Part shown: positions 10,776 through 49,700 of the stretch, piece by piece
Layout of the letters: each line of letters begins with the position of its first letter
Position numbering within the stretch: position 1 is the stretch's first letter
Source of the DNA: Flavivirga amylovorans
GTDB taxonomy: Bacteria; Bacteroidota; Bacteroidia; Flavobacteriales; Flavobacteriaceae
NCBI RefSeq assembly: GCF_030540875.1
Contig: NZ_JAUOEM010000004.1
Span: 62,001-126,000, forward strand
Direction of reading: 5' to 3'
Length of the DNA stretch: 64,000 bases
Translations under genes and position numbers: made by a program
Notes under the pieces: generated by a model
Seen by the model: the letters and a program-made list of their open reading frames with translations, nothing else
Database searches by the model: none
Told to the model about the DNA's origin: nothing

Positions 10776-11252
10776 ATGCAGCTATCAAAAAAAACATATA
10801 CGGTACAAGAAGCCACTAAAAAACTAGAGCATTATTGTGCGTATCAAGAACGTTGTCATCAAGAAGTTAGACAAAAACTAACTAACATGCATATGATTCC
10901 TGAGGCTATCGATATGATAATCGTTCACCTTTTGGAACATAACTTTCTTAATGAAGAACGTTTTGCCAAAGCATTCGTAAGTGGTAAGCTTAAAATTAAG
11001 CATTGGGGGCGACGTCGTTTAACTTATGAACTTAAGAAAAAAGACGTGGTCAAAGTTAATATAAATCAAGCACTTAGCGAAATAGGAAATGAGGAGTATA
11101 TCGAGGTTTTCAACGATTTAGCCGAAAAAAAGGCAAATTCTATTAAAGAAACTAACAAGTTTAAGAGAAGAAAGAAATTAATTGATTTTCTAATATATAA
11201 AGGATGGGAGTCTGATTTAGTGTATGAAAAAGCAAATGAACTTATACAATAA
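10776..11252 (+). CDS. recX: Regulatory protein RecX
   Basis: A 158-residue, highly basic helical protein with the RecX three-helix repeats. Examples are LEHYCAYQERCHQEVRQKL, FLNEERFAKAFVSGKLKIKHWGRRR (quoted in part as NEERFAKAFVSGKLKIKHWG) and LIYKGWESDLVYEKANELI. RecX binds RecA filaments and limits recombinase activity. recA is not adjacent. The length is usual for the family. Its 3' end overlaps the convergent JmjC/cupin gene by 11 bases. Confidence 0.92.
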   Translation: MQLSKKTYTVQEATKKLEHYCAYQERCHQEVRQKLTNMHMIPEAIDMIIVHLLEHNFLNEERFAKAFVSGKLKIKHWGRRRLTYELKKKDVVKVNINQALSEIGNEEYIEVFNDLAEKKANSIKETNKFKRRKKLIDFLIYKGWESDLVYEKANELIQ

Positions 11253-12114
11253 GATTACTGTTTTCATGTGTTCTTATTATGGCCTGCTCATTTTTCCAAT
11301 CAATCCATTTTTGGCCTCTTAAACGTCTCATCATATTGTCATAATTACGCATAATCAATAAGTTATATATCGCTCTGCTAAAGTTTTTAGGGTTTCTGGC
11401 AATAGCTCTTAAGCTCATGGAAAAACCAGCTGTTATATAACGCATATAATGCCAATATCCTTCTGGCATGTATAAAAGTTCACCATGTTTTAATTCGGTT
11501 TTATATCCCTTAGCTTTTTTTAGCATGGGCCATTTTTTAAAATCTGGGTTTTTAAAATCTATGTCTTCTCTGGTGATTAATGAATGTGGAATTTTATACA
11601 GGTACTGACTTTGTTTTTGGTTAAACATAATAACCTGTTTGGCGCCTTCAAAATGAAAATGGAAAATGTTGGCCAAATCAATATCATAATGCATAAAAGT
11701 ATGAGAATTACGTCCTCCAAAAAACAACATTGGGATACCTTTCATGAGTCGTAACCCGAAATCTGGAAACGTAAAATCTTTTTGTAACTCTGGTATTTCT
11801 TTTAAGGCATTCCAAAGAAAAATACGGTATTTTGTAGGTTCACTTTTTAGTAGATCGATATAAGCGCTCATTTTCATCTTTGCATGTGGCTCGTTAAATC
11901 CATCTTTATAATCTACCGGTCTGTCATCGTAAAGTGGAATAATAATATTGCCAGCAATGGCTTTCATATAATCCAAATTCCATTTGGTATATGCGGGCCA
12001 GTCCTTTATAAATTGCTCAATAACAATAGGTTTTTGCGGATTAAAATAATGTTTTAAAAAGTCCGCTTTAGTAATGGTTTTTACACGAGGAATGTCTTGC
12101 AGATTAAGTGCCAA
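11242..12114 (-). CDS. JmjC/cupin_8-type oxygenase-like protein
   Basis: A 290-residue cytoplasmic protein with the fold signature of cupin_8/JmjC hydroxylases. The N-terminal FLKHYFNPQKPIVIEQFIKDWPA precedes the core TFMHYDIDLANIFHFHFEGA, which supplies a HxD metal-binding pair. A later LLYMPEGYWHYMRYI supplies the distal His. Such proteins are Fe(II)/2-oxoglutarate-dependent hydroxylases acting on proteins or small molecules. The substrate here is unknown. Its C-terminus overlaps convergent recX by 11 bases. It stands alone, with a long spacer carrying a repeat upstream. Confidence 0.82.
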   Translation of the reverse strand: MALNLQDIPRVKTITKADFLKHYFNPQKPIVIEQFIKDWPAYTKWNLDYMKAIAGNIIIPLYDDRPVDYKDGFNEPHAKMKMSAYIDLLKSEPTKYRIFLWNALKEIPELQKDFTFPDFGLRLMKGIPMLFFGGRNSHTFMHYDIDLANIFHFHFEGAKQVIMFNQKQSQYLYKIPHSLITREDIDFKNPDFKKWPMLKKAKGYKTELKHGELLYMPEGYWHYMRYITAGFSMSLRAIARNPKNFSRAIYNLLIMRNYDNMMRRLRGQKWIDWKNEQAIIRTHENSNLIV

Positions 12115-12278
12115 TACTTAAATAGTTTAGTTCTCAAAGTTAAAAAAACGTTACGAAATCAAAAATAGTATGTCGAGTGCTGTTTCTAATTTGTTGAAAT
12201 ATGATATTTTAAGTAACGTCAGTTCGGTATATTAAAAACTGATAATCAAAGACTTAAAAGGTTTTAAAGAAGAAATCA

Positions 12279-12360
12279 TGTCATTTCCGACGAGGAACGA
12301 GGAGGAATCTCATCATGATGAGATGTCTCGTCACTCATGCTTCGCTCTGTCGACATGACA
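12279..12360. repeat. Palindromic interspersed repeat element
   Basis: An 82-base element with terminal TGTCAT (12279-12284) and ATGACA (12355-12360). At its centre is an 18-base perfect palindrome, ATCTCATCATGATGAGAT (12307-12324). It carries the GACGAGGAACGAGGAG and CATGCTTCGCTCTGTCGA segments that I know from scattered repeats in other flavobacterial genomes. It lies in the 348-base gap between bioB and the JmjC gene; the rest of that gap holds nothing recognisable. Confidence 0.8.
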
Positions 12361-12462
12361 AACAGGTATATTTCATTGGATTATTAAGATGTCTTCAACA
12401 AAGCTTACGTCGAAATCACCTTTAGTTTAGCCTAAAGATAAATAATAGCTTTAAAAATATAA

Positions 12463-13557
12463 TTACTTTAAAGTTTTAGCTTTTTCTTTAGCAATTTCGT
12501 TACGCTCAATAGTATGTTCTGGTCGTGTCCATTTTGGTTTTTCACCTAAAGCTTCATATTGAGAATCTGTAGCTTCTACCGTTTGTGGTTGTACCTTTTT
12601 AGTAAATGGTTTTTGAGGAATCATACCCAGTAATTCAAACATTTTCATGTCTTCATTCACATCAGGATTTGGTGTTGTTAATAGTTTGTCTCCGGCAAAA
12701 ATAGAATTAGCACCAGCAAAGAAGCACATGGCTTGCCCTTCTCTAGACATCTGTGTTCTACCTGCGCTTAAACGTACTTGTGTTTCTGGCATAACTATTC
12801 GTGTTGTAGCAACCATACGAATCATGTCCCAGATTTCAACTGGTTTCTCGTCCTCTAATGGCGTACCTTCAACAGCTACTAAAGCGTTAATAGGAGTTGA
12901 TTCTGGTTGCGGATTTAAGGTCGATAAAGCGACTAGCATACCAGCACGATCTTCTATATTTTCACCCATACCAATAATACCGCCGCTACAAACAGTAACG
13001 TTTGTTTTACGTACATTATCAATGGTGTCTAATCGGTCTTGATACCCTCTTGTGGATATGACTTCTTTATAATATTCCTCTGAGGAATCTAAATTATGAT
13101 TATAAGCATATAAACCGGCTTCGGCAAGTCGTTGTGCTTGGTTTTTAGTAATCATTCCAAGGGTGCAACATACTTCCATATCCAATTTATTAATGGTTCG
13201 TACCATTTCTAAAACTTCATCAAACTCATCACCATCTTTTACATTACGCCATGCAGCACCCATACATACACGAGAACTTCCAGTAGCTTTTGCACGTAAA
13301 GCTTGTGCTTTTACCTGTTGTACGGACATTAAATCATTCCCTTCAATATCGGTATGATAGCGAGCTGCTTGTGGACAATAACCGCAATCTTCTGAGCATC
13401 CTCCAGTTTTTATTGATAGTAAAGTAGATACTTGTACGACATTTGGGTCATGGTGCAAACGATGAACGGTAGCTGCTTCGTAAAGCAATTCCATTAAAGG
13501 TTTGTTATAAATTTTTATGATGTCTTCTTTTGTCCAGTTGTGTCGTATCTCGCTCAT
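12463..13557 (-). CDS. bioB: Biotin synthase
   Basis: A 364-residue radical-SAM enzyme inserting sulfur into dethiobiotin. The [4Fe-4S]/SAM motif CSEDCGYC gives Cys54, Cys58 and Cys61. Other BioB signatures are GSSRVCMGAAWR, YNHNLDSSEEYY, the VCSGGIIGMGE block, and RLSAGR with the Arg ligand of the second cluster. The C-terminus extends about 40 residues beyond the core in a charged tail (RNEIAKEKAKTLK). It is separated from the bioF-bioD-bioA run by about 4 kb and has its own promoter region. Confidence 0.97.
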   Translation of the reverse strand: MSEIRHNWTKEDIIKIYNKPLMELLYEAATVHRLHHDPNVVQVSTLLSIKTGGCSEDCGYCPQAARYHTDIEGNDLMSVQQVKAQALRAKATGSSRVCMGAAWRNVKDGDEFDEVLEMVRTINKLDMEVCCTLGMITKNQAQRLAEAGLYAYNHNLDSSEEYYKEVISTRGYQDRLDTIDNVRKTNVTVCSGGIIGMGENIEDRAGMLVALSTLNPQPESTPINALVAVEGTPLEDEKPVEIWDMIRMVATTRIVMPETQVRLSAGRTQMSREGQAMCFFAGANSIFAGDKLLTTPNPDVNEDMKMFELLGMIPQKPFTKKVQPQTVEATDSQYEALGEKPKWTRPEHTIERNEIAKEKAKTLK

Positions 13558-13579
13558 AAATCAAGTTAATAATCTGTAT

Positions 13580-13618
13580 CAAAAATACTAATTAAATAGA
13601 ATATACGTTCAATATTCT
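13580..13618 (-). promoter_or_regulatory. bioB promoter with overlapping palindrome
   Basis: On the minus strand TATTTTTG (13580-13587) fits the -7 consensus, with TTG at 13610-13612 after a 22-base spacer. The inverted repeat AGAATAT-N7-ATATTCT (13598-13618) overlaps the -33 side. It could be an operator for a biotin-responsive repressor, but no regulator is identified here. Confidence 0.4.
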
Positions 13619-13675
13619 TTTAATTAATATACTCTAATTCTGGAGGCCTATTTTTTAAAAATTTTTAAAAAAACC

Positions 13676-15088
13676 TTATTTTCCTTCTTCAGTAGAGCTT
13701 GAAGTGTCTTCGCCAGTCTCTTTCCCTTTTAAATATTCAGGTAATTGCATTCCAGCCATATTGAACATATCCTGTAATGGTGGTACCGATTTATACATAC
13801 CAGAGAGGAAGTTAGCTGTTGAAGATTTTCCATCTTCCCCGCTACCGCCATTTTCCCATACAGTTACTTTATCGATCTTAATGTTTTTAATGGCTTCTGC
13901 TTGTGTTTTAACCAGCTCAGGTAATTTATCTGCAATTAATAATAGTACGGCATCTTTAGAATTATTACCGGCCGCTTTTACAATTTGGTCTAAACCAGCC
14001 GCTTGTTTTGTTAAGACTTCATACAGACCTTCTGCTTCTGCTTGTGCTTTAAAAAGAATCGCATCGGCTTCACCTTTGGCACGTCTTCTAATTTTTTCAG
14101 CTTCTGCTTCGGCATCAATTTCAACTTTCTTTTTATCAATTTCTGCAGGAACAATAATATCCGCCATTTGAGAGGAACGTTCTCTTTCTGCTCTCGCTGT
14201 TTCAGCTTCTTTTTCAGCAGCATAAGATTCTTCCAATGCTTTTGCACTTTGTACTTTCTCTGAAGCAATCGCAACACGTTCTGCTTCTGCCTCTCTTTGA
14301 CGACGTAACGAATCTGAATTAGCCACAGCAATTTTTGCGGTATTTTCACCTTCTACAGCTTGGGCATTAGCAGCGGCAACTTGAGTTCTTTCATCCTGTA
14401 CTGCATTGGCTTCACCAATAGATCCATCTCTTGTTTTTTCTGCAACCGATTTACGAGCTGCATTAATAGCGTGTGCTGCAGCTTCTTTTCCTAATGCTTC
14501 TATATAACCAGATTCATCAACAATATCAGTAATGTTTACGTTGATTAGTTTTAAACCAACTTTCTTTAATTCGGATTCTACAGACTGTGAAATATTTGCC
14601 AAAAATTTATCTCTATCTGAATTAATTTCTTCAATATCCATGGAAGCTACAACTAAACGTAATTGACCAAAAATAATTTCTTGAGCTAGTTCTTGAATTT
14701 CGTTTTGACCTAATCCTAATAAACGTTCCGCAGCATTTTGCATAATACCTGGTTCGGTAGAAACACCAATGGTGAAACGAGAGGGTACATTTACGCGGAT
14801 ATTTTGTTTAGAGAGGGCATTTACCAGATTTACTTCAATTGATATTGGTGTTAAATCAAGAAATTCATAATCTTGAATCACAGGTAAAATAAATGCAGCA
14901 CCACCGTGAATACATTTGGCTGATTGCCCGCCGCCTACTTTTCCGTAGACTACTAAAATCCTATCCGAAGGACAACGTTTATAGCGTTTGATTAGAATTA
15001 TTAAAAAAAGGAATATAAATAATACTCCAAAAATAAGAGTCATTGGGAGCCCTAAATTAGGCCCTTCCTGAATTATCAGTAATTTCAT
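13676..15088 (-). CDS. Flotillin-like SPFH membrane protein
   Basis: A 470-residue protein with one N-terminal membrane segment (GLPMTLIFGVLFIFLFLIIL). An SPFH/band-7 domain follows (about 40-220, with VNVPSRFTIGVSTEP and AERLLGLGQNEI). A long Ala/Glu/Lys/Arg-rich coiled coil (about 230-370) comes next, then a short tail. This is flotillin (YqiK/FloA-type) architecture; such proteins organise membrane domains. The start lies inside the preceding NfeD-like gene (32-base overlap), the usual pairing of SPFH and NfeD proteins. The high Ala/Glu content explains long spurious ORFs on both strands here. Confidence 0.92.
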   Translation of the reverse strand: MKLLIIQEGPNLGLPMTLIFGVLFIFLFLIILIKRYKRCPSDRILVVYGKVGGGQSAKCIHGGAAFILPVIQDYEFLDLTPISIEVNLVNALSKQNIRVNVPSRFTIGVSTEPGIMQNAAERLLGLGQNEIQELAQEIIFGQLRLVVASMDIEEINSDRDKFLANISQSVESELKKVGLKLINVNITDIVDESGYIEALGKEAAAHAINAARKSVAEKTRDGSIGEANAVQDERTQVAAANAQAVEGENTAKIAVANSDSLRRQREAEAERVAIASEKVQSAKALEESYAAEKEAETARAERERSSQMADIIVPAEIDKKKVEIDAEAEAEKIRRRAKGEADAILFKAQAEAEGLYEVLTKQAAGLDQIVKAAGNNSKDAVLLLIADKLPELVKTQAEAIKNIKIDKVTVWENGGSGEDGKSSTANFLSGMYKSVPPLQDMFNMAGMQLPEYLKGKETGEDTSSSTEEGK

Positions 15089-15689
15089 AAGTGTGTTGTT
15101 TTAAAGGTTCTATTGGTTTTCTTGTTTGGTCGACGATTAAGATACCATTTGAGGTAACGTCGACTACTTTTATTATTGTTCCAGATTTTAATTCTACTAG
15201 TGAATCTGTAAGAGCATCCAGTTCGCGCATAGTTCCCTGAACGCTAACACTTACTTTTCCCATTTTAGATCGATCGGCTCCAATGGTAAGATATACTTCA
15301 CCAATGGCATCAATCGCATTTTTATAGTTTAAAGTGCCACTGTCTGTTAATTTACCCATAAAATAGAACATTGCGGCCATAATAATCATCATTACTAATC
15401 CACAGAATATAGAAATGATAATCGTTATAGGCATAGATAACCCAGCATCTATACATGCGATGCCACTCCATCCAAAAATGGTAAAAAATCCAACTAAGTT
15501 TTTAAAAGTGATAAATTGAAATCCTATTCCTGTGTCTCCATCAATTTCAGAATCTATATCTCCAGCTCCGTCAGCATCACCGCCCGTAAAAGATAATATC
15601 ATTACGATTGTAAAAATAAGTGAGCCAATAATAGCTATTAGCCAATATATTTTTGGAAATAATTCTAAGTTAAAAAACCACTCTGTCAT
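15057..15689 (-). CDS. NfeD-like membrane protein with OB-fold domain
   Basis: A 210-residue inner-membrane protein. Hydrophobic segments occur at about residues 14-34, 65-85 and 88-112 (MPITIIISIFCGLVMMIIMA). A soluble C-terminal beta-rich domain (about 125-200: GEVYLTIGADRSKMGKVSVS, IIKVVDVTSNGILIVDQ) has the OB-fold look of NfeD/YqiJ proteins. It is transcribed just before and overlaps the flotillin gene, and NfeD proteins are known partners of SPFH proteins. A GDADGAGDIDSEIDGDTG acidic loop lies between the first two membrane segments. Confidence 0.82.
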   Translation of the reverse strand: MTEWFFNLELFPKIYWLIAIIGSLIFTIVMILSFTGGDADGAGDIDSEIDGDTGIGFQFITFKNLVGFFTIFGWSGIACIDAGLSMPITIIISIFCGLVMMIIMAAMFYFMGKLTDSGTLNYKNAIDAIGEVYLTIGADRSKMGKVSVSVQGTMRELDALTDSLVELKSGTIIKVVDVTSNGILIVDQTRKPIEPLKQHTYEITDNSGRA

Positions 15690-15720
15690 AGTTTTGAGAA
15701 TTAAAAATTAGTGATTTAAA

Positions 15721-15746
15721 TGTAAGATTATTTGAATAAGCTTACA
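15721..15746 (-). terminator. Stem-loop after the beta-ketoacyl synthase gene
   Basis: TGTAAG-A-TTATT and AATAA-G-CTTACA form a 26-base inverted repeat with one mismatch and a 2-base centre. It begins 3 bases after the synthase stop on the minus strand. No clean T-run follows, so it may end transcription only partly. Confidence 0.4.
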
Positions 15747-15748
15747 AT

Positions 15749-16936
15749 TTATTTTGAAAGTAAAATTGAAACTGCATTTCCTCCAAAACCAACAGCATTT
15801 ACAAGAATATTTTTTATTCTTTTTGGTGATTCTTGATTTTCTAAATAAGGAATACCAATAAATTTTTGATTTTGTAACATTAAAACTGCAAATTCAATAT
15901 TCAGAGCCCCGGAAGCTCCAAAGGTGTGACCTATCTTCCATTTATTTGTAGTCAAAGCAGGTGTTTTGTTACAAAATATCTTTTCTATTGCTTTATATTC
16001 TGAAAGGTCTCCTTTTATAGTTCCTGGTGCATGCATGACAATAATATCAATATCATCAGGATTTAAATCGCCTAGAGCCATTTGCATCGATTTTTGAAAA
16101 CATTGGGCATCACTTGAAATAGAAATATTATGTTCTAAAATTTCTGTGGCGTAACCAATTCCTTTTATAATAGCTAAGGCGTTCTCTTTTTCACCTGTTT
16201 CTAAACAAGCCATAGAAGCGCCTTCTCCTAAAACCATGGTGTTTTGTTTTTTCTTAAGATCTAAAGCTAGGCAAGGAAAAGATGCTTCGCTGTGCTCTGA
16301 ATGACAGGGATCACTTAACTTGTTTTTCGAATATATTTTAAGCGCTCTCATCTGTGCAATGGTAAACGATGTAAGAGGGGCTTCGCTTCCTCCAACTAAA
16401 AATTTATCACACATACCAGAATGAATCCATGCAATACCATTAAGCATGGCGTGTAATGCAGTCGAACAGGTTATAGAATGACTAATTTCTGGGCCTTGTG
16501 TTTGTAGATCGTGAGCGACCCAAGATGAAATATTACCTAATGTTGTTGTAGGAGAACATAATGTTTTGGCTTTGTTTTTTTCAAGATAATCTTTGTGATA
16601 GGTTTCAAAAAGTTCTGTTGCCCCACGAGAAGACCCAATATTAATTCCAAAATTGTCTGAACCATTCCAGTTAGCTTGTTTTATAGCTTGTCGAGATGCA
16701 TAAATAGCAAATAAAACAGTGTCATCAAGAGATTTGTATTTGGAATCTGATTGACGTAATAATTCAATATGTTCTTTAGCGTCTTTAGGAATTTCAGCAA
16801 CTAAAGCATTTTCATTGTCAAATGATTTTTCCGAAAGGCAATGCGTATCGTTTTGGTAGCTTTTCCATGCATCATCTAAAGATTTTCCTAATGGAGAAAT
16901 AGATGAAATAGCGGTTATGGAGATTGGTTTTTGCAA
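15749..16936 (-). CDS. Beta-ketoacyl synthase near biotin genes
   Basis: A 395-residue thiolase-fold condensing enzyme of the KAS I/II (FabB/FabF) type. The full catalytic triad is visible: Cys157 (SITCSTALHA), His302 (VMHAPGTIKGD) and His337 (KIGHTFGASGA). The start is a TTG at 16936; no in-frame ATG is available and MQKPISITAISSISPLG matches a normal N-terminus. A -7 box lies just upstream. The position close to bioA-bioD-bioF suggests a part in making the pimeloyl chain, but this is inference. Residues 211-220 (CHSEHSEASF) look like translation of an inserted palindromic repeat. Confidence 0.85.
   Translation of the reverse strand: MQKPISITAISSISPLGKSLDDAWKSYQNDTHCLSEKSFDNENALVAEIPKDAKEHIELLRQSDSKYKSLDDTVLFAIYASRQAIKQANWNGSDNFGINIGSSRGATELFETYHKDYLEKNKAKTLCSPTTTLGNISSWVAHDLQTQGPEISHSITCSTALHAMLNGIAWIHSGMCDKFLVGGSEAPLTSFTIAQMRALKIYSKNKLSDPCHSEHSEASFPCLALDLKKKQNTMVLGEGASMACLETGEKENALAIIKGIGYATEILEHNISISSDAQCFQKSMQMALGDLNPDDIDIIVMHAPGTIKGDLSEYKAIEKIFCNKTPALTTNKWKIGHTFGASGALNIEFAVLMLQNQKFIGIPYLENQESPKRIKNILVNAVGFGGNAVSILLSK
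16277..16310 (-). repeat. Repeat-derived segment inside the KAS gene
   Basis: The minus strand reads CTGTCATTCAGAGCACAG then CGAAGCATCTTTTCC, the hallmark sequence of scattered GTCATT-type repeats. It is translated in frame as CHSEHSEASF. The reading frame continues correctly on both sides. Confidence 0.65.
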
Positions 16937-16952
16937 GATTTTAGACTTTAGA

Positions 16953-16960
16953 CAAAAGTA
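16953..16960 (-). promoter_or_regulatory. -7 box of the beta-ketoacyl synthase gene
   Basis: Read on the minus strand this is TACTTTTG, a match to TAnnTTTG, 16 bases upstream of the TTG start. A -33 TTG is not evident. Confidence 0.4.
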
Positions 16961-17072
16961 AGTCTTATTGTATTTATTTCACATGGTTTTATCAAATGAA
17001 AATAAAATAATTTAAAAGTATGTAACAAGTTATTCTGTTATGATACTTATGTTTATGTAAAAACGCTTTTCT

Positions 17073-17504
17073 ATGGAAGACATAAAAAGAAAGAGTTGGT
17101 TTGGTAGAAATTGGCCATGGGTATTACCAGTGGGCGGATGTTTAACAATTATTATATTGTTTGCATTGGGAGCGGGAGCCATATTTTTTGGTGTTTCTAA
17201 AATATTTAAATCATCGGCTCCTTATACTTATGCCGTTGAGAGGGCTTTTGAAAATGAGGATGTTATTGATTTTTTAGGAGAGCCACTTGAAACGGATGGT
17301 ATTATAAGCGGAAATATTTCGTTAAAGAATGATGAAGGAGAGGCTGATTTTGAAATTCCTATAGCTGGTAAGAATGGAGACGGAAGCATTATAGTTGTTG
17401 CTAATAAAATAAATGATGAATGGGTTTATGAAAAATTGTATGTTTTAATAAAAGAAACGAAAGAGGAGATTAATTTGTTGGACAAAGGTTTAGAAGGTAT
17501 TTAA
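17073..17504 (+). CDS. Coa1/TIM21-family membrane protein
   Basis: A 143-residue protein with a charged N-terminus (MEDIKRKSWFGRNWPW), one membrane helix (VLPVGGCLTIIILFALGAGA) and a periplasmic domain. The pattern IISGNISLKNDEGEADFEIP, followed by GSIIVVANKINDEWVYEKL, matches the bacterial Coa1 (cytochrome oxidase assembly factor 1) family. In bacteria the function is unproven. It is the only plus-strand gene inside the biotin region and converges on bioA with a 6-base gap. Confidence 0.75.
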   Translation: MEDIKRKSWFGRNWPWVLPVGGCLTIIILFALGAGAIFFGVSKIFKSSAPYTYAVERAFENEDVIDFLGEPLETDGIISGNISLKNDEGEADFEIPIAGKNGDGSIIVVANKINDEWVYEKLYVLIKETKEEINLLDKGLEGI

Positions 17505-17510
17505 CTATGA

Positions 17511-18776
17511 TTAAACAATTTCTAAAACATCTTCAATGACTTGATAGATTTTCTGTAGTTGTTCTTTAGTAATTGTATAAGGTGCTTGAATATAGATAGT
17601 GCTTCCTAAAGGACGCAGAAATACCCCATGATCTAAAAAGAATTTAAATAATTTGTCTCGTAAATTGCCATAACGTGTCATTTCTATGTTTAAATCCAAG
17701 GCAAAAATAATCCCTGTTTGTCGTGTGGATTTTACTTTAGGATGTGTTTTTATACGTTTGTTAAATGCTTTATGTGACGCAATAACTGCTTTTATATTTT
17801 GTTGAATGACTTCAGATTGTAATAATTCTATGCTTGCTAAAGCGGCTGTACAAGCCAATGGGTTTGCCGAATATGTGTGTCCATGAAACAGACCCTTACT
17901 AATGTCGTTACTGTAGAAGGCTTCGTAGATTTTTTCAGAACATGTAGTAAGCGCCATTGGCAATAAACCCCCAGTTAAGGCTTTACTTAAACACATAATG
18001 TCTGGTTTTGTGTCTATATGAAGCGAAGCGAAATAGTCTCCTGTTTTTCCAAAACCGGTCATAACTTCGTCAGCAACAGTAACAATACCGTGTTTTTTAC
18101 AAAGTTCTAAAATAGCATTTAAGCCTTCTGAGTTGTACATTTTCATGGCTGCTGCACCTTGTACTAGAGGTTCGTATACAAAACCCGCCACTTTATTGGT
18201 TTCTACTATGGCGTTTAAAGTGTTTAAAATAGCCTCGTTGTTTTCTCCGTTTGGGGTTGGAATGCGTTTAACTTCTAAAAAGAAATCTTCAAAGGGTCCG
18301 TTGTAAACCGATAATCCAGACACGCTCATAGCACCAAAGGTGTCTCCATGGAACCCGTCTTCAAAAGCAATAAGTGTATTGCGTTTTTCTCCTTTGTTAA
18401 AATGAAATTGCAAAGCCATTTTTATACCAATTTCAACAGAGGTTGAACCATTATCACTAAAGAAAATTTTATTCTGATTGTCTGGTAGAATTTTAATAAG
18501 TGCTTCAGATAGTTTTATAGCAGGTTCATGAGTAAAGCCACTAAAAACCACTTGATCTAATTGCTGCATTTGAGTAGCAACACAACTGGTGATATATTCG
18601 TTACAATGCCCATACATACATGTGTACCATGAAGCAATGGCATCAATATATTCGTTGCCATTTTCATCATATAAAACACAGTCTTTTGCTTTGGTTATAG
18701 CAATAGTTTCTGGATGCAATTTGTGCTGTGTTAGGGGATGCCAGAGGTGTTTTTTATCGCGGTCTTGTAGAGTCAT
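17511..18776 (-). CDS. bioA: Adenosylmethionine-8-amino-7-oxononanoate transaminase
   Basis: A PLP class III aminotransferase converting 7-keto-8-aminopelargonate to 7,8-diaminopelargonate with SAM as donor. Motifs are HLWHPLTQH at the N-terminus, DEVMTGFGKTG, the PLP lysine in CLSKALTGG, and LFHGHTYSANPLA. I chose the ATG at 18776 (MTLQDRDKKHLWHPL, 421 residues). An upstream in-frame ATG at 18809 would add 11 residues encoded by a palindromic repeat that fills the bioD-bioA gap. It belongs to the bioF-DUF2007-bioD-bioA run. Confidence 0.96.
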   Translation of the reverse strand: MTLQDRDKKHLWHPLTQHKLHPETIAITKAKDCVLYDENGNEYIDAIASWYTCMYGHCNEYITSCVATQMQQLDQVVFSGFTHEPAIKLSEALIKILPDNQNKIFFSDNGSTSVEIGIKMALQFHFNKGEKRNTLIAFEDGFHGDTFGAMSVSGLSVYNGPFEDFFLEVKRIPTPNGENNEAILNTLNAIVETNKVAGFVYEPLVQGAAAMKMYNSEGLNAILELCKKHGIVTVADEVMTGFGKTGDYFASLHIDTKPDIMCLSKALTGGLLPMALTTCSEKIYEAFYSNDISKGLFHGHTYSANPLACTAALASIELLQSEVIQQNIKAVIASHKAFNKRIKTHPKVKSTRQTGIIFALDLNIEMTRYGNLRDKLFKFFLDHGVFLRPLGSTIYIQAPYTITKEQLQKIYQVIEDVLEIV

Positions 18777-18783
18777 AGGTATC

Positions 18784-18858
18784 GTCATTTCTGCGAGAGC
18801 AGTATCCATTATTTTATTTTTATTTTCAATATATAAGATTCGCCTTCGCGGGAATGAC
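18784..18858. repeat. Palindromic repeat filling the bioD-bioA spacer
   Basis: GTCATT (18784-18789) and AATGAC (18853-18858) bound the element. Inside are CTGCGAGAGCAG and CGCCTTCGCG mini-hairpins, the form of GTCATTCC-type scattered repeats. It begins 2 bases after the bioD stop (on the minus strand) and ends 7 bases before the preferred bioA ATG. Confidence 0.7.
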
Positions 18859-18860
18859 AG

Positions 18861-19469
18861 TTACAATCTGCTTTTAAATAATTCAGCATAGTCACTCACC
18901 ACATTTTTATCAAAATAAGGTTCTTCATTAATACGGCCAATAACGGGAACCTTTGTCATTTTATTAATAATATCTTCGGTGGTTTTATGTTCATTGCCAC
19001 TAAAAATAACAGAGATGTCGAATCCTTTTTCTTTTAAAGCGTTTACTGTTAATAACGTATGATTAATACTGCCAAGATAATGCCTGGAAACAACAATCAC
19101 TTTATAGTCGGGCTTAATAAGATCTAAAATCGTTTGGGTATCATTTATAGGTACTAATAAACCACCTGCGCCTTCAATGATTAAATGATTTTTTGTTTTA
19201 GGAGCATTTATTTGTTTTATGTCTATTGAAACTCCATCAATATCTGCTGCTGCATGCGGACTCATGGGCGTTTCTAAGGCATAGCTATTTGGGTGAATTT
19301 TAGACTTGGTATTGCTAATAAGTTTTTTAACGGTATGTTTATCGTCATGGTCTAGTTCACCTGCTTGAATTGGTTTCCAATAGTCTGCTTGCAACGCTTC
19401 AGTGACTATCGCTGAGGCAATCGTTTTACCAACGTCTGTAGATATTCCTGTGATGAAATATGTCTTCAT
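18861..19469 (-). CDS. bioD: Dethiobiotin synthetase
   Basis: A 202-residue ATP-dependent carboxylase closing the ureido ring of dethiobiotin. The P-loop GISTDVGKT sits at residues 6-14, WKPIQAG carries the substrate-contacting lysine, and IEGAGGLLVPIND is the conserved BioD block. The start ATG at 19469 overlaps the upstream TGA as ATGA, so translation is probably coupled. A longer ORF reaching 19493 is less likely. Confidence 0.96.
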   Translation of the reverse strand: MKTYFITGISTDVGKTIASAIVTEALQADYWKPIQAGELDHDDKHTVKKLISNTKSKIHPNSYALETPMSPHAAADIDGVSIDIKQINAPKTKNHLIIEGAGGLLVPINDTQTILDLIKPDYKVIVVSRHYLGSINHTLLTVNALKEKGFDISVIFSGNEHKTTEDIINKMTKVPVIGRINEEPYFDKNVVSDYAELFKSRL

Positions 19470-19879
19470 TTTAAATCGAATTCTGTTTTGCAATCTTCAC
19501 ATTTATACTTGTGTTTTGTATAAAAAGGAAGTGAAGAAAATAAAAAACCAAAAATAAACCAGAATAATGATTTAGCATCTTTTATTGTAGAAAATAATTC
19601 TACTTTTTCACTTTTACAATTAGGACAGTTTATAGTATGACCTTCATCATCAATAGAGTACTTCTCAATAGAATCCAATATATGTTGTGCTTTTAATGCC
19701 TGGCGAGATAACACTTTTAATTTCACACCTCCAATAGCATTACTTACTAAAGGATCTGTATCTATAGTTAGATTGTCTGATAAAAAAACTTCAATACCTT
19801 CTGCTTCTAGCCGTCCTTTAATAATTTGGGCTTCAGATGAATATTGAAACCTAGCTATTGTTTTAAATCTATCACCCAT
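19466..19879 (-). CDS. DUF2007-type protein with zinc ribbon
   Basis: A 137-residue protein. The N-terminal half (FKTIARFQYSSEAQIIKGRL, VFLSDNLTIDTDP, VKLKVLSRQ) matches the DUF2007 'putative signal-transducing' ferredoxin-like fold. The C-terminal half has CPNCKSEKVE and CEDC, probably a zinc ribbon, with a short hydrophobic FWFIFGFLFSSLPFY between the two cysteine pairs. It overlaps bioF by 8 bases and bioD by 4, so it is embedded in the biotin operon. Its role in biotin synthesis is unknown. Confidence 0.8.
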   Translation of the reverse strand: MGDRFKTIARFQYSSEAQIIKGRLEAEGIEVFLSDNLTIDTDPLVSNAIGGVKLKVLSRQALKAQHILDSIEKYSIDDEGHTINCPNCKSEKVELFSTIKDAKSLFWFIFGFLFSSLPFYTKHKYKCEDCKTEFDLK

Positions 19880-21020
19880 ATGTATGTAGAGTAGCTAGTA
19901 ATTTTAATACGTTCGATATGTCTTCTTCAGAATTAAACGCGTGTAAACAAAAACGTAATCGCTCTTGCTCTTTTGGAACCGTTGGTGATAATATGGGTTT
20001 TATATTAAAACCTTTTTCCTGAAACTTTTGGGCGATTAATTTCACAGTGTCATTTCCAGAAATAATACAGCAGTGTATGGCGGAATCACTTTCTATAAAA
20101 TAGTTTTGAAGGCCATTTTCAATAATCTCACTTTTAAAATGAGCAATGTTTTTATGAAGCTGTTTTCTGTTTTCGGTTAAAACTAATTCGTGATAAGCAG
20201 CATGAATATTAGCTAAGGTATGAGGTGTTAGAGCTGTGGTATAGATAAAGCTTCGAGCAAAATTCACCAAATATTGTTTTAAAGCATCACTTCCTATAAT
20301 GGCAGCACCATGCGTCCCAATAGCCTTTCCGAATGTAATGATTCTAGCAAAAACATCCTCCTCTAATTCTAAATGTTGAACTAAACCGATGCCGCGTTCT
20401 CCAAAAACACCAACAGCATGTGCTTCGTCTATAATAAAATAAGCATTATGATCTTTACATAGTTGCGCCATCCCTTTTAGGTCTGGAGAATCACCATCCA
20501 TTGAAAAAATAGATTCTGTAACAATGTATATGTTAGTTTCTTGTGAGACCTCTCGATTGCGCTCGAGGAGATACTCTAAGTCCTGTAAACTATTATGCTT
20601 AAACTTATAAGCTTTTGCATTAGAGAGTTTAATGCCATCACGAATAGATGCGTGGATATATTCATCATATAAAATAATATCGCCTCGTTGTGGAATACAT
20701 GAAAAGATCCCCACATTGGCATCGTAACCTGAATTAAAAATTAAAGCAGATTCGCTATTATGAAAATCAGATAATAAGGATTCTATAATATTGAAAAGCG
20801 GATGGTTTCCTGAAAGTAGCCGTGAGCCTGTTGCCCCATTATGGGTTATGTTGTGTCCAACTAAAAATTCATGAGTCCTATTAAAAATGATTTCAGACTT
20901 AGAAAAACCCAAATAATCATTAGATGAAAAATCTATTAAATTATTTTGTATTCCCAATTGACGTAACGCATTATTCGCTTTACGTTCTTCTAGTCTTTTT
21001 TGTAGTTTTTTAGGAAACAT
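19872..21020 (-). CDS. bioF: 8-amino-7-oxononanoate synthase
   Basis: A PLP-dependent alpha-oxoamine synthase joining pimeloyl thioester and alanine, the first step of ring assembly in biotin synthesis. Motifs are IDFSSNDYLGFSKS, GATGSRLLSGNHPL, YIVTESIFSMDGDSPDL, DEAHAVGVFGERG, and the PLP lysine in ITFGKAIGTHGAA. I prefer the ATG at 21020 (MFPKKLQKRLEERKA, 382 residues) over an ATG five codons upstream. It is the first gene of the bioF-DUF2007-bioD-bioA run. Confidence 0.95.
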   Translation of the reverse strand: MFPKKLQKRLEERKANNALRQLGIQNNLIDFSSNDYLGFSKSEIIFNRTHEFLVGHNITHNGATGSRLLSGNHPLFNIIESLLSDFHNSESALIFNSGYDANVGIFSCIPQRGDIILYDEYIHASIRDGIKLSNAKAYKFKHNSLQDLEYLLERNREVSQETNIYIVTESIFSMDGDSPDLKGMAQLCKDHNAYFIIDEAHAVGVFGERGIGLVQHLELEEDVFARIITFGKAIGTHGAAIIGSDALKQYLVNFARSFIYTTALTPHTLANIHAAYHELVLTENRKQLHKNIAHFKSEIIENGLQNYFIESDSAIHCCIISGNDTVKLIAQKFQEKGFNIKPILSPTVPKEQERLRFCLHAFNSEEDISNVLKLLATLHTYG

Positions 21021-21072
21021 GGGGTAAAGATACAAAGACCTATTAGCTTATAGAAATATCTTTTTTTTGATA

Positions 21073-21108
21073 AAAAATTATTGTTTATCAATAATTTTTA
21101 TATATTTG
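21073..21108 (+). promoter_or_regulatory. Promoter with 11-bp palindromic operator
   Basis: TATATTTG (21101-21108) is a perfect -7 box, with TTG at 21081-21083 and a 17-base spacer. A perfect inverted repeat, AAAAATTATTG (21073-21083) and CAATAATTTTT (21089-21099), spans from the -33 box to just before the -7 box. This is an excellent position for repression, perhaps by the HTH protein encoded third in the operon. Confidence 0.65.
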
Positions 21109-46782: not shown

Positions 46783-49700
46783 ATGAGCACTAAATTTCCT
46801 GAATATAAAGGACTTGACTTACCAAATGTAGCAAAAGAGATACTACAATATTGGCAAGAAAATAACATCTTTGAGAAAAGTGTTTCTACCAGAGAAGGTA
46901 AGGAACCTTATGTATTTTATGAAGGGCCACCGTCTGCAAATGGACTTCCTGGAGTACACCACGTTTTAGCACGTGCTATTAAAGATATTTTTCCACGTTA
47001 TAAAACCATGAAAGGCTACCAAGTAAAGCGTAAAGCAGGTTGGGATACTCATGGCTTACCTATTGAGTTAGGTGTTGAAAAAGAATTAGGTATTACCAAG
47101 GAAGATATAGGGAAAACAATTTCGGTAGAAGATTATAATGCAGCATGTCGTAAAGCCGTAATGCGTTATACAGACGTATGGAATGACCTAACACAAAAAA
47201 TGGGCTATTGGGTAGATATGGACGACCCGTATATTACCTACGATCCTAAATACATGGAGAGTGTTTGGTGGTTGCTAAAGCAAATTTATAATAAAACCTT
47301 GCTTTACAAAGGCTATACCATACAGCCTTATTCACCAAAAGCAGGTACAGGGTTAAGCTCACATGAATTAAACCAACCAGGAACGTATCAAGATGTAACC
47401 GATACCACAGTAGTTGCTCAATTTAAAGCAAATCAAGATTCGTTACCAGACTTTTTACAAAATGAAGGTGATATTTATTTTATGGCTTGGACAACCACAC
47501 CATGGACATTACCAAGTAATACAGCATTAACCGTTGGGCCAAAAATTGATTATGTATTAGTTGAAACATATAATCAATATACGTTCGAACCCATCAATGT
47601 TGTTTTAGCTAAGAAACTAGTTAACTATCAGTTTTCTGGAAAATTTAATCAAGTTGAAGATAAATCTGAATTATTAAACTATAAATCGGGAGATAAAAAA
47701 ATTCCTTTTTATGTTGTTAAAGAATTTGTAGGGAAAGATTTAGTAGGTATTACTTACGAACAGTTGTTGCCTTATGCATTGCCAAATGATAATCCGGAAA
47801 ATGCTTTTAGAATCATTTCTGGAGATTTCGTAACAACAGAAGATGGTACAGGAATTGTACATACAGCACCTACTTTTGGAGCCGATGATGCCTTGGTAGC
47901 AAAACAAGCGACACCAGAAGTACCACCTATGCTGGTAAAAGATGAACATGATAATTTGGTGCCGCTTGTAGATTTGCAAGGACGTTTTAGACCAGAAATG
48001 GGAGAATACGCAGGTAAGTATGTGAAGAATGAGTACTATAATGATGGCGAAGCACCAGAACGTTCTATTGACGTAGAGATTGCCATTAAATTAAAAGAAG
48101 AAAATAAAGCCTTTAAGGTTGAGAAATATAAGCACAGCTATCCAAACTGTTGGAGAACAGATAAACCCATTCTATATTATCCTTTAGATTCTTGGTTTAT
48201 TAAAGTAACCGATATTAAAGATCGTATGCACGAACTTAATAACTCCATCAATTGGAAACCAAAAAGTACTGGTGAAGGACGATTTGGAAATTGGTTAGCG
48301 AATGCAAACGATTGGAATTTATCACGCTCACGTTATTGGGGAATTCCATTACCAATTTGGAGAACTGAAGATGGGAAAGAAGAAATTTGTATTGGATCTG
48401 TAGAGGAGTTAAAATCTGAAATGGGTAAAGCTGTTTCAGCAGGTGTTTTAGCAAAAGATATTTTTGAAGATTTTGAAATTGGAAATAATTCTGAAGAAAA
48501 TTATGCCAAGATAGATTTACATAAAAACATTGTTGACGACATCGTATTGGTATCTGCATCAGGTCAAAAAATGTTCAGAGAAAGCGATTTAATTGACGTG
48601 TGGTTTGATTCTGGTTCTATGCCTTATGCACAATGGCATTATCCATTTGAAAATAGAGAGTTTATAGATGGCTCTCGTCAACCTGAACTTGTTCCAGGTT
48701 CTCATGACGAGGCTCCGAAACAAGTTCGGAACGACAAGAAAGTTTTTCCTGCCGATTTTATAGCAGAAGGTGTCGATCAAACAAGAGGGTGGTTCTATAC
48801 GTTACATGCTATTGGAACGATGGTTTTTGATTCTGTAGCCTATAAAAATGTAGTATCCAATGGATTGGTGTTAGACAAGAACGGACAGAAAATGTCGAAG
48901 CGCTTAGGGAATGCTGTAGATCCTTTTGAAACTTTAGGTAATTATGGAGCCGATGCTACGCGTTGGTACATGATTAGTAACGCAAACCCTTGGGATAATT
49001 TAAAATTCGATATAGAAGGAGTAGAAGAGGTGAAACGTAAGTTTTTCGGAACACTTTACAATACCTATTCTTTCTTTACTTTATATACTAATTTAGATAA
49101 CTTTAATTATTCTGAAGCAGACATAGTTTTAGAAGAGCGACCGGAAATTGATCGTTGGATTTTGTCCGAGTTGCATACATTGATAAAGAAAGTGGATGCT
49201 TTTTATGCTGATTATGAACCTACAAAAGCAGCACGTGCTATCTCAGATTTTACTCAAGATTATGTAAGCAACTGGTTCGTTCGTTTAAGCAGAAGGCGTT
49301 TTTGGAAAGGTGATTACGAGCAAGATAAAATTTCGGCATACCAAACGCTTTATACGTGTATGATAACGATTGCAAAACTAGGAGCGCCAATTGCACCGTT
49401 TTTTATGGATAGATTGTATTTAGATTTAAATTCAGTGACCCAAAAAGAATCATTTGAGAGTGTGCATTTAGCGAACTTCCCTGTTTATGATGAAGCCTTT
49501 ATTGATAAAAGTTTAGAACGAAAAATGGAAAGCGCTCAAACAATATCATCATTAGTTTTATCGTTAAGAGCTAAGGAGAAAATAAAAGTACGTCAGCCAC
49601 TTCAAAAAATAATGATTCCAGTTGATAATGATCAACAAAAAGAAGAAATATTGGCTGTTTCAGAGTTAATAAAACATGAAGTAAATGTTAAAAGTGTAGA

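Follow-up and report, generated by a model that had tools for sequence, protein, structure and literature searches.

Short palindromic repeats (REPs) bearing a CGTC or TGTC tag were defined by Di Nocera, De Gregorio, and Rocco in 2013 in a survey that included the Bacteroidetes (PMC3733652). In that survey, the stem of the CGTC superfamily is 8 to 9 bp in length and opens with complementary A-T, and the loop measures 4 to 5 nt. The survey also describes REPs inside genes in several species and, in recB of X. campestris and X. oryzae, different REPs at approximately the same site. The classical precedent for palindromic repeats lying in frame within conserved genes is provided by the Rickettsia palindromic elements, or RPEs, of Ogata et al. 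(2000/2002; PMC10969869, PMC3733652), and RPE-4 and RPE-6 are themselves given as CGTC repeats in the 2013 survey. The RAYT-associated REPs are of the GTAG type, and TnpA-REP subclasses 2.4 and 2.6 occur in Bacteroidetes (PMC6006769).

The repeat described here lies in a 64-kb window (the whole stretch of DNA that was analyzed, 64,000 nt) of Flavivirga amylovorans, a genus missing from the survey of CGTC-tagged REPs as far as its available portions go. Its anatomy is close to that of the CGTC/TGTC-tagged repeats. The two have in common the CGTC/TGTC tag, A-T first stem pairs, a length of 20 to 40 nt, a mostly intergenic location with some intragenic copies, many copies per genome, dimers mainly of one orientation class, and the lack of a dedicated transposase, with none flanking a tyrosine transposase gene. 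The Flavivirga repeat departs from that description in that its stem has mismatched G.A-type positions and in that one loop is taken by different subtypes across genera. Like the RPEs, it is found in frame in conserved genes in a manner seemingly compatible with function, and in the Flavivirga case there are empty orthologues. Classical RPEs, however, are ~150 bp in length and belong to another phylum, whereas the Flavivirga repeat is 27 bp and adds eight to nine residues. With the RAYT-associated REPs it shares the form of a short palindrome dispersed in a bacterial genome, but it lacks the GTAG tag, and no covariance-model match was found within ~1.5 kb of the domain at any of the six Y1_Tnp loci of the genome. 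An association with a RAYT was rejected, as none of these loci is flanked by cognate REPs within that distance. A literature search, with subscription papers mostly outside its coverage, returned no intragenic REPs for the Flavobacteriaceae, an absence that constitutes weak evidence. Protein-coding repeats are already known from Rickettsia and several Proteobacteria, and what is new is the flavobacterial case and its unusually clear recurrence at the same site.

The repeat in the synthase gene

The features surrounding the repeat are as follows, with positions numbered from the first nucleotide of the window.

15749 to 16936, minus strand: FabB/FabF-like β-ketoacyl synthase gene, 395 residues, TTG start (Pfam ketoacyl-synt N and C; TM ~0.85 with FabF folds)
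16277 to 16330, minus strand: length-variable loop, approximately residues 203 to 220, which holds the repeat (alignments, gene tree, structure prediction)
16280 to 16306, minus strand: TGTC-tagged palindromic repeat (REP) TGTCATTCAGAGCACAGCGAAGCATCT, coding for CHSEHSEAS (genome counts and covariance model)
18836 to 18859, minus strand: REP-like copy of a different subtype, TGTCATTCCCGCGAAGGCGAATCT, in the intergenic region of bioD and bioA (covariance model 13.8 bits, weak)
12320 to 12360, minus strand: REP-like palindrome TGTCATGTCGACAGAGCGAAGCATGAGTGACGAGACATCTC, in the intergenic region that separates bioB from the gene at 11242 to 12114 (sequence inspection only)

The synthase gene is bordered by bioA on one side and by a gene encoding an NfeD-like membrane protein on the other. 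Biotin genes surround it from 12463 to 21035 on the minus strand (bioB at 12463, bioA at 17511, bioD at 18861, and bioF at 19872), and given this placement the enzyme may supply pimelate for biotin rather than function in bulk fatty acid synthesis. Cys 157, His 302, and His 337 are invariant in an alignment of 38 orthologous proteins, and a comparison of close relatives gave a dN of ~0.03 versus a dS of ~0.4.

A 27-nt copy of TGTCATTCNGARCNNNNYGAAGNATCT is positioned in frame between 16280 and 16306 and codes for Cys 211 to Ser 219. The minus strand in this region reads CTGTCATTCAGAGCACAGCGAAGCATCTTTTCC, and CHSEHSEASF corresponds to residues 211 to 220 of the open reading frame, which is unbroken across the insert. 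The last phenylalanine (TTT) and the letters downstream of it lie beyond the boundary of the repeat proper and are host sequence. A covariance model assigned 38.6 bits (E ~1e-5) to positions 16281 to 16305 on the minus strand, the sole significant place in the window; this copy was itself among the 53 sequences used to train the model, and the genome count presented below is independent of it. Because the window holds a single copy of this subtype, a direct-repeat search of the window alone recovered no family. An Rfam scan of 11000 to 21100 produced nothing above the gathering score of any family.

A structure predicted with AlphaFold2 and 38 natural orthologues (pTM 0.89) contains neither helix nor strand from residue 203 to residue 233, and residues 210 to 217, where the pLDDT of the loop is lowest, form one of two stretches with values below 50. 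The FabF sequences of solved structures display a 10-residue gap at the place of the repeat. On the basis of this model, the repeat-coded segment is in a predicted disordered surface loop. The earlier note, which proposed that a scattered repeat of the GTCATT type is read in frame as CHSEHSEASF within an otherwise intact gene and that its location on a FabF structure be checked for a surface loop, is borne out on each count: by the genomic copies described below, by the open frame, by the invariant catalytic residues and the dN and dS values, and by the predicted disorder together with the alignment gap.

The repeat family in Flavivirga and its relatives

Copies were counted by pattern search, with the same pattern read backwards serving as the control. 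The 4.86-Mb genome of F. amylovorans contains 21 sites matching a 26-nt pattern with three or fewer mismatches, versus none for the backwards pattern. All 12 Flavivirga genomes have copies, from 8 to 106 each, and a stricter pattern is present in 26 of 296 Flavobacteriales genomes, the control yielding no matches in either set. This patchy spread is typical of mobile DNA. The copies lie mostly between genes, often as inverted pairs, and all 18 of the close pairs, separated by 7 to 40 nt, are in the +/- arrangement. Those inside long open reading frames number 4 of 21 in the F. amylovorans genome, 1 of 53 in the relative G001 (a count that left out its KAS, mfd, and icmF copies), and 1 of 49 in G004. 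The TGTC tag is found in most of the copies listed, the pattern itself having included the tag with two or fewer mismatches allowed.

The repeat is an imperfect palindrome in which the first pairs are A-T, the stem spans nine positions with two to three of them mismatched, and the loop consists of 3 nt. Among 53 distinct copies, 38 double-change cells were observed versus 13.6 upon shuffling and 0 to 5 in slid registers, and four of the six stem pairs change on both sides; the pattern used for this analysis left four stem pairs free and fixed the GTC. Compensated variants of the inner stem include GC/GC, AC/GT, and AT/AT, and those of the outer stem include ATTC/GAAT, ATGC/GCAT, and ACAC/GTGT. 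As a single strand, the 27 nt should fold only weakly, with a predicted energy near zero. This energy does not support a stable single-strand hairpin for the copy in the synthase gene, which is backed by the covariation within the family only.

Approximately 30% of the repeats at loci L247 to L326 in G001 and G004 are positioned just inside a GAGGCTGTCTAAAAA-like terminus; the arrangement suggests that some repeats are parts of larger MITE-like units containing inverted REP pairs. In another flavobacterial genome (G161, C1:1372963-1374418), about ten copies of the repeat occur in tandem with a spacing of ~146 to 177 nt.

The synthase loop in orthologues and the origin of the insert

The segment is an indel, missing from half of the orthologues in Flavivirga and from most outgroups. 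The loop is filled in F. amylovorans and in G001, G003, G007, G008, G009, and G017, and it is short in six Flavivirga species and most outgroups. Measured from KIY to SFPC, it contains 20 residues in G000, G001, G008, and G003, 28 in G007 and G009, and 9 to 14 in the six other Flavivirga species. A second REP, AGTACTGAGCGCAGTCGAAGTATC, interrupts the copy of F. jejuensis (G007) and adds a further eight residues. Beyond the genus, the same repeat subtype occupies the loop of Marixanthotalea and of Aestuariivivens marinum, that of Winogradskyella ursingii holds GTCATGCTGAGCCTGTCGAAGCATC of the ATGC/GCAT subtype, that of Tamlana agarivorans JW-26 is of the GTCACAC type, and that of Xanthomarina spongicola is a double palindrome. 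Most other genera have a short loop. Because relatives share the segment, its insertion is older than the species F. amylovorans. The indel among orthologues was anticipated in the earlier note, but the segment is not private to the species, given that the loop contains a REP in 5 of the 11 other Flavivirga genomes and in members of several additional genera. The outcome named in the note as a refutation, a segment shared by orthologues, is therefore seen in part.

A model designated R1, trained on genomic copies, was applied to 95 synthase loci of ~4 kb each. All of its matches within the gene with E values below 1, ten places in total, fall in this loop; one further strong match, in L014, is located in the flank outside of the gene. 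The copies from F. amylovorans and G001, and those similar to them, belong to the training set, and thus their scores are not independent, and the Marixanthotalea subtype sequence is identical to one of the training copies. The Winogradskyella, Aestuariivivens, G017, G003, and Xanthomarina sequences are from outside of the set. A gene tree computed with the loop left out requires at least 7 changes of state for the presence of a REP and 21 for long versus short loop; the tree was a quick one with many weak forks, and these counts are rough minima in which gain and loss are not told apart.

It is quite probable that a TGTC-tagged REP entered the synthase gene in frame at a length-tolerant surface loop and has been kept as a neutral or near-neutral predicted protein segment. 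The most likely account is that the loop is permissive and has tolerated a selfish REP following repeated insertion or replacement. REPs of this class would land in the genome, or take one another's place, randomly or with a weak preference, each acquisition being either an insertion or a putative REP-for-REP replacement by gene conversion. The repeat has stops in two of its six frames, the remaining four being stop-free, and net gains of 24 nt would leave the reading frame unbroken. Selection would purge insertions in folded parts or in stop-bearing frames, extra residues would pile up in tolerant loops, and permissive loops would therefore look like hot spots. Neutral retention would fit both a strongly constrained gene and the differences seen within the repeat codons, which are few and mostly alter amino acids. 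We infer the insertion itself, as neither a target duplication nor a transposase for it was found.

It is possible, but considerably less likely, that a single ancient REP insertion in a common ancestor of these genera was followed by many losses and by in-place drift or gene conversion with local REPs, without the loop being targeted repeatedly. This explanation has the same REP origin as recurrent insertion or replacement and differs from it in the number of insertions only. Flavivirga, Marixanthotalea, Aestuariivivens, and G017 have similar flanks, KLNND (K.KLNND), ahead of CHSE, and for this reason part of the recurrence may represent a single early insertion that was subsequently lost in some lineages. 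The genera between the carriers, however, mostly have a nine-residue loop without the flank. Likewise, the short Flavivirga loops keep a ...GAATCT... stretch that resembles the repeat's end and may have been left by a deletion. On the other side, the subtypes, whose stem differences are compensated, correspond to different REP classes, and in F. jejuensis one REP lies inside another.

We consider it unlikely that a dedicated nuclease-driven process writes and rewrites palindromic repeats into the same loops of conserved genes in the Flavobacteriaceae. The candidate would be endonuclease elements of the DUF559/Vsr-like kind that end in inverted hairpins; in three sister species, ileS contains such an element in frame where F. 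amylovorans has its REP dimer. Still less probable is selection of the peptide for enzyme function, as in acyl carrier protein docking or substrate gating. Indeed, the segment is kept in several species, and its 27 nt are identical in F. amylovorans and G001 despite a dS of ~0.4 over the rest of the gene, but the repeat holds just five synonymous sites, numbers too small for a selection test. Both differences from G008 within the repeat change amino acids, the peptides of the carriers differ widely, many orthologues do without the segment, and the loop is predicted to be disordered. Chance or convergent growth of a loop that merely resembles the repeat can be dismissed: the loop does vary in length in general, non-REP sequence included, but the control gave 0 versus 21 sites in the F. 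amylovorans genome and hundreds in the genus, the covariance-model matches are at one place only within the gene, and for carriers of this subtype the copy counts refute such an origin.

Inserts in other conserved genes

Four more genes of the same genome, namely mfd, icmF, a MenE-like gene, and ileS, have similar inserts that are absent from the outgroups. The in-frame repeats code for CDSEHSEES in mfd, for GHAELVEAS in the MenE-like ligase, and, on the opposite strand, for EEILRQAQND in icmF. An alignment of mfd orthologues reveals differing REP subtypes at one place in different Flavivirga species, and the inserts in icmF and the MenE-like gene are genus-wide and in varied states of decay. 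The MenE-like copies read GTCATGCGGAACTTGTCGAAGCATC in F. amylovorans, TGTCATGTCGAGCTTGCCGAAGCATC in G008, and TGTCATACTGAGGCTGTCGAAGGATC in G002, and they are unrecognizable in G003 and G009; in G025 to G030 the gene is 10 to 14 residues shorter. The insert in ileS lies within the window.

48670 to 48741, plus strand: ileS insert GSRQPELVPGSHDEAPKQVRNDKK, a pair of oppositely oriented CGTC/TGTC-type palindromes (~21 extra residues)

The earlier note named ileS as a second case. The extra residues are present, and 14 of 18 other ileS genes have nothing at the insert site (of the remaining four, three contain a DUF559 domain, which is larger, and the fourth has a different insert that is short), but the CGTC-type double palindrome is a related yet different repeat from that in the synthase gene. 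The ileS genes of G003, G008 (F. rizhaonensis), and G004 (L076, L077, L078) contain an in-frame DUF559 endonuclease domain of ~140 residues (PF04480, E 6e-33), which occupies the place of the F. amylovorans REP dimer and has inverted hairpin ends such as CTAAATCCTCCAAAGGAGGACTT. By its sequence, this insert resembles an endonuclease gene that resides, in frame, within an essential tRNA synthetase, with neither intein nor intron. Its plasmid relatives are distant, with identities below 60%.

Because the same loop holds different repeats in several related bacteria, the synthase loop is, on sequence grounds, a site at which selfish DNA is tolerated and has landed repeatedly. With this case, the known range of protein-coding palindromic repeats comes to include free-living marine Bacteroidota. 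It also provides a set of conserved enzymes (the synthase, IleRS, Mfd, IcmF, and the MenE-like protein) with filled, empty, and re-filled orthologues, which makes the spread of transposase-less CGTC repeats, and the repeated use of loops, testable both by comparison and at the bench.
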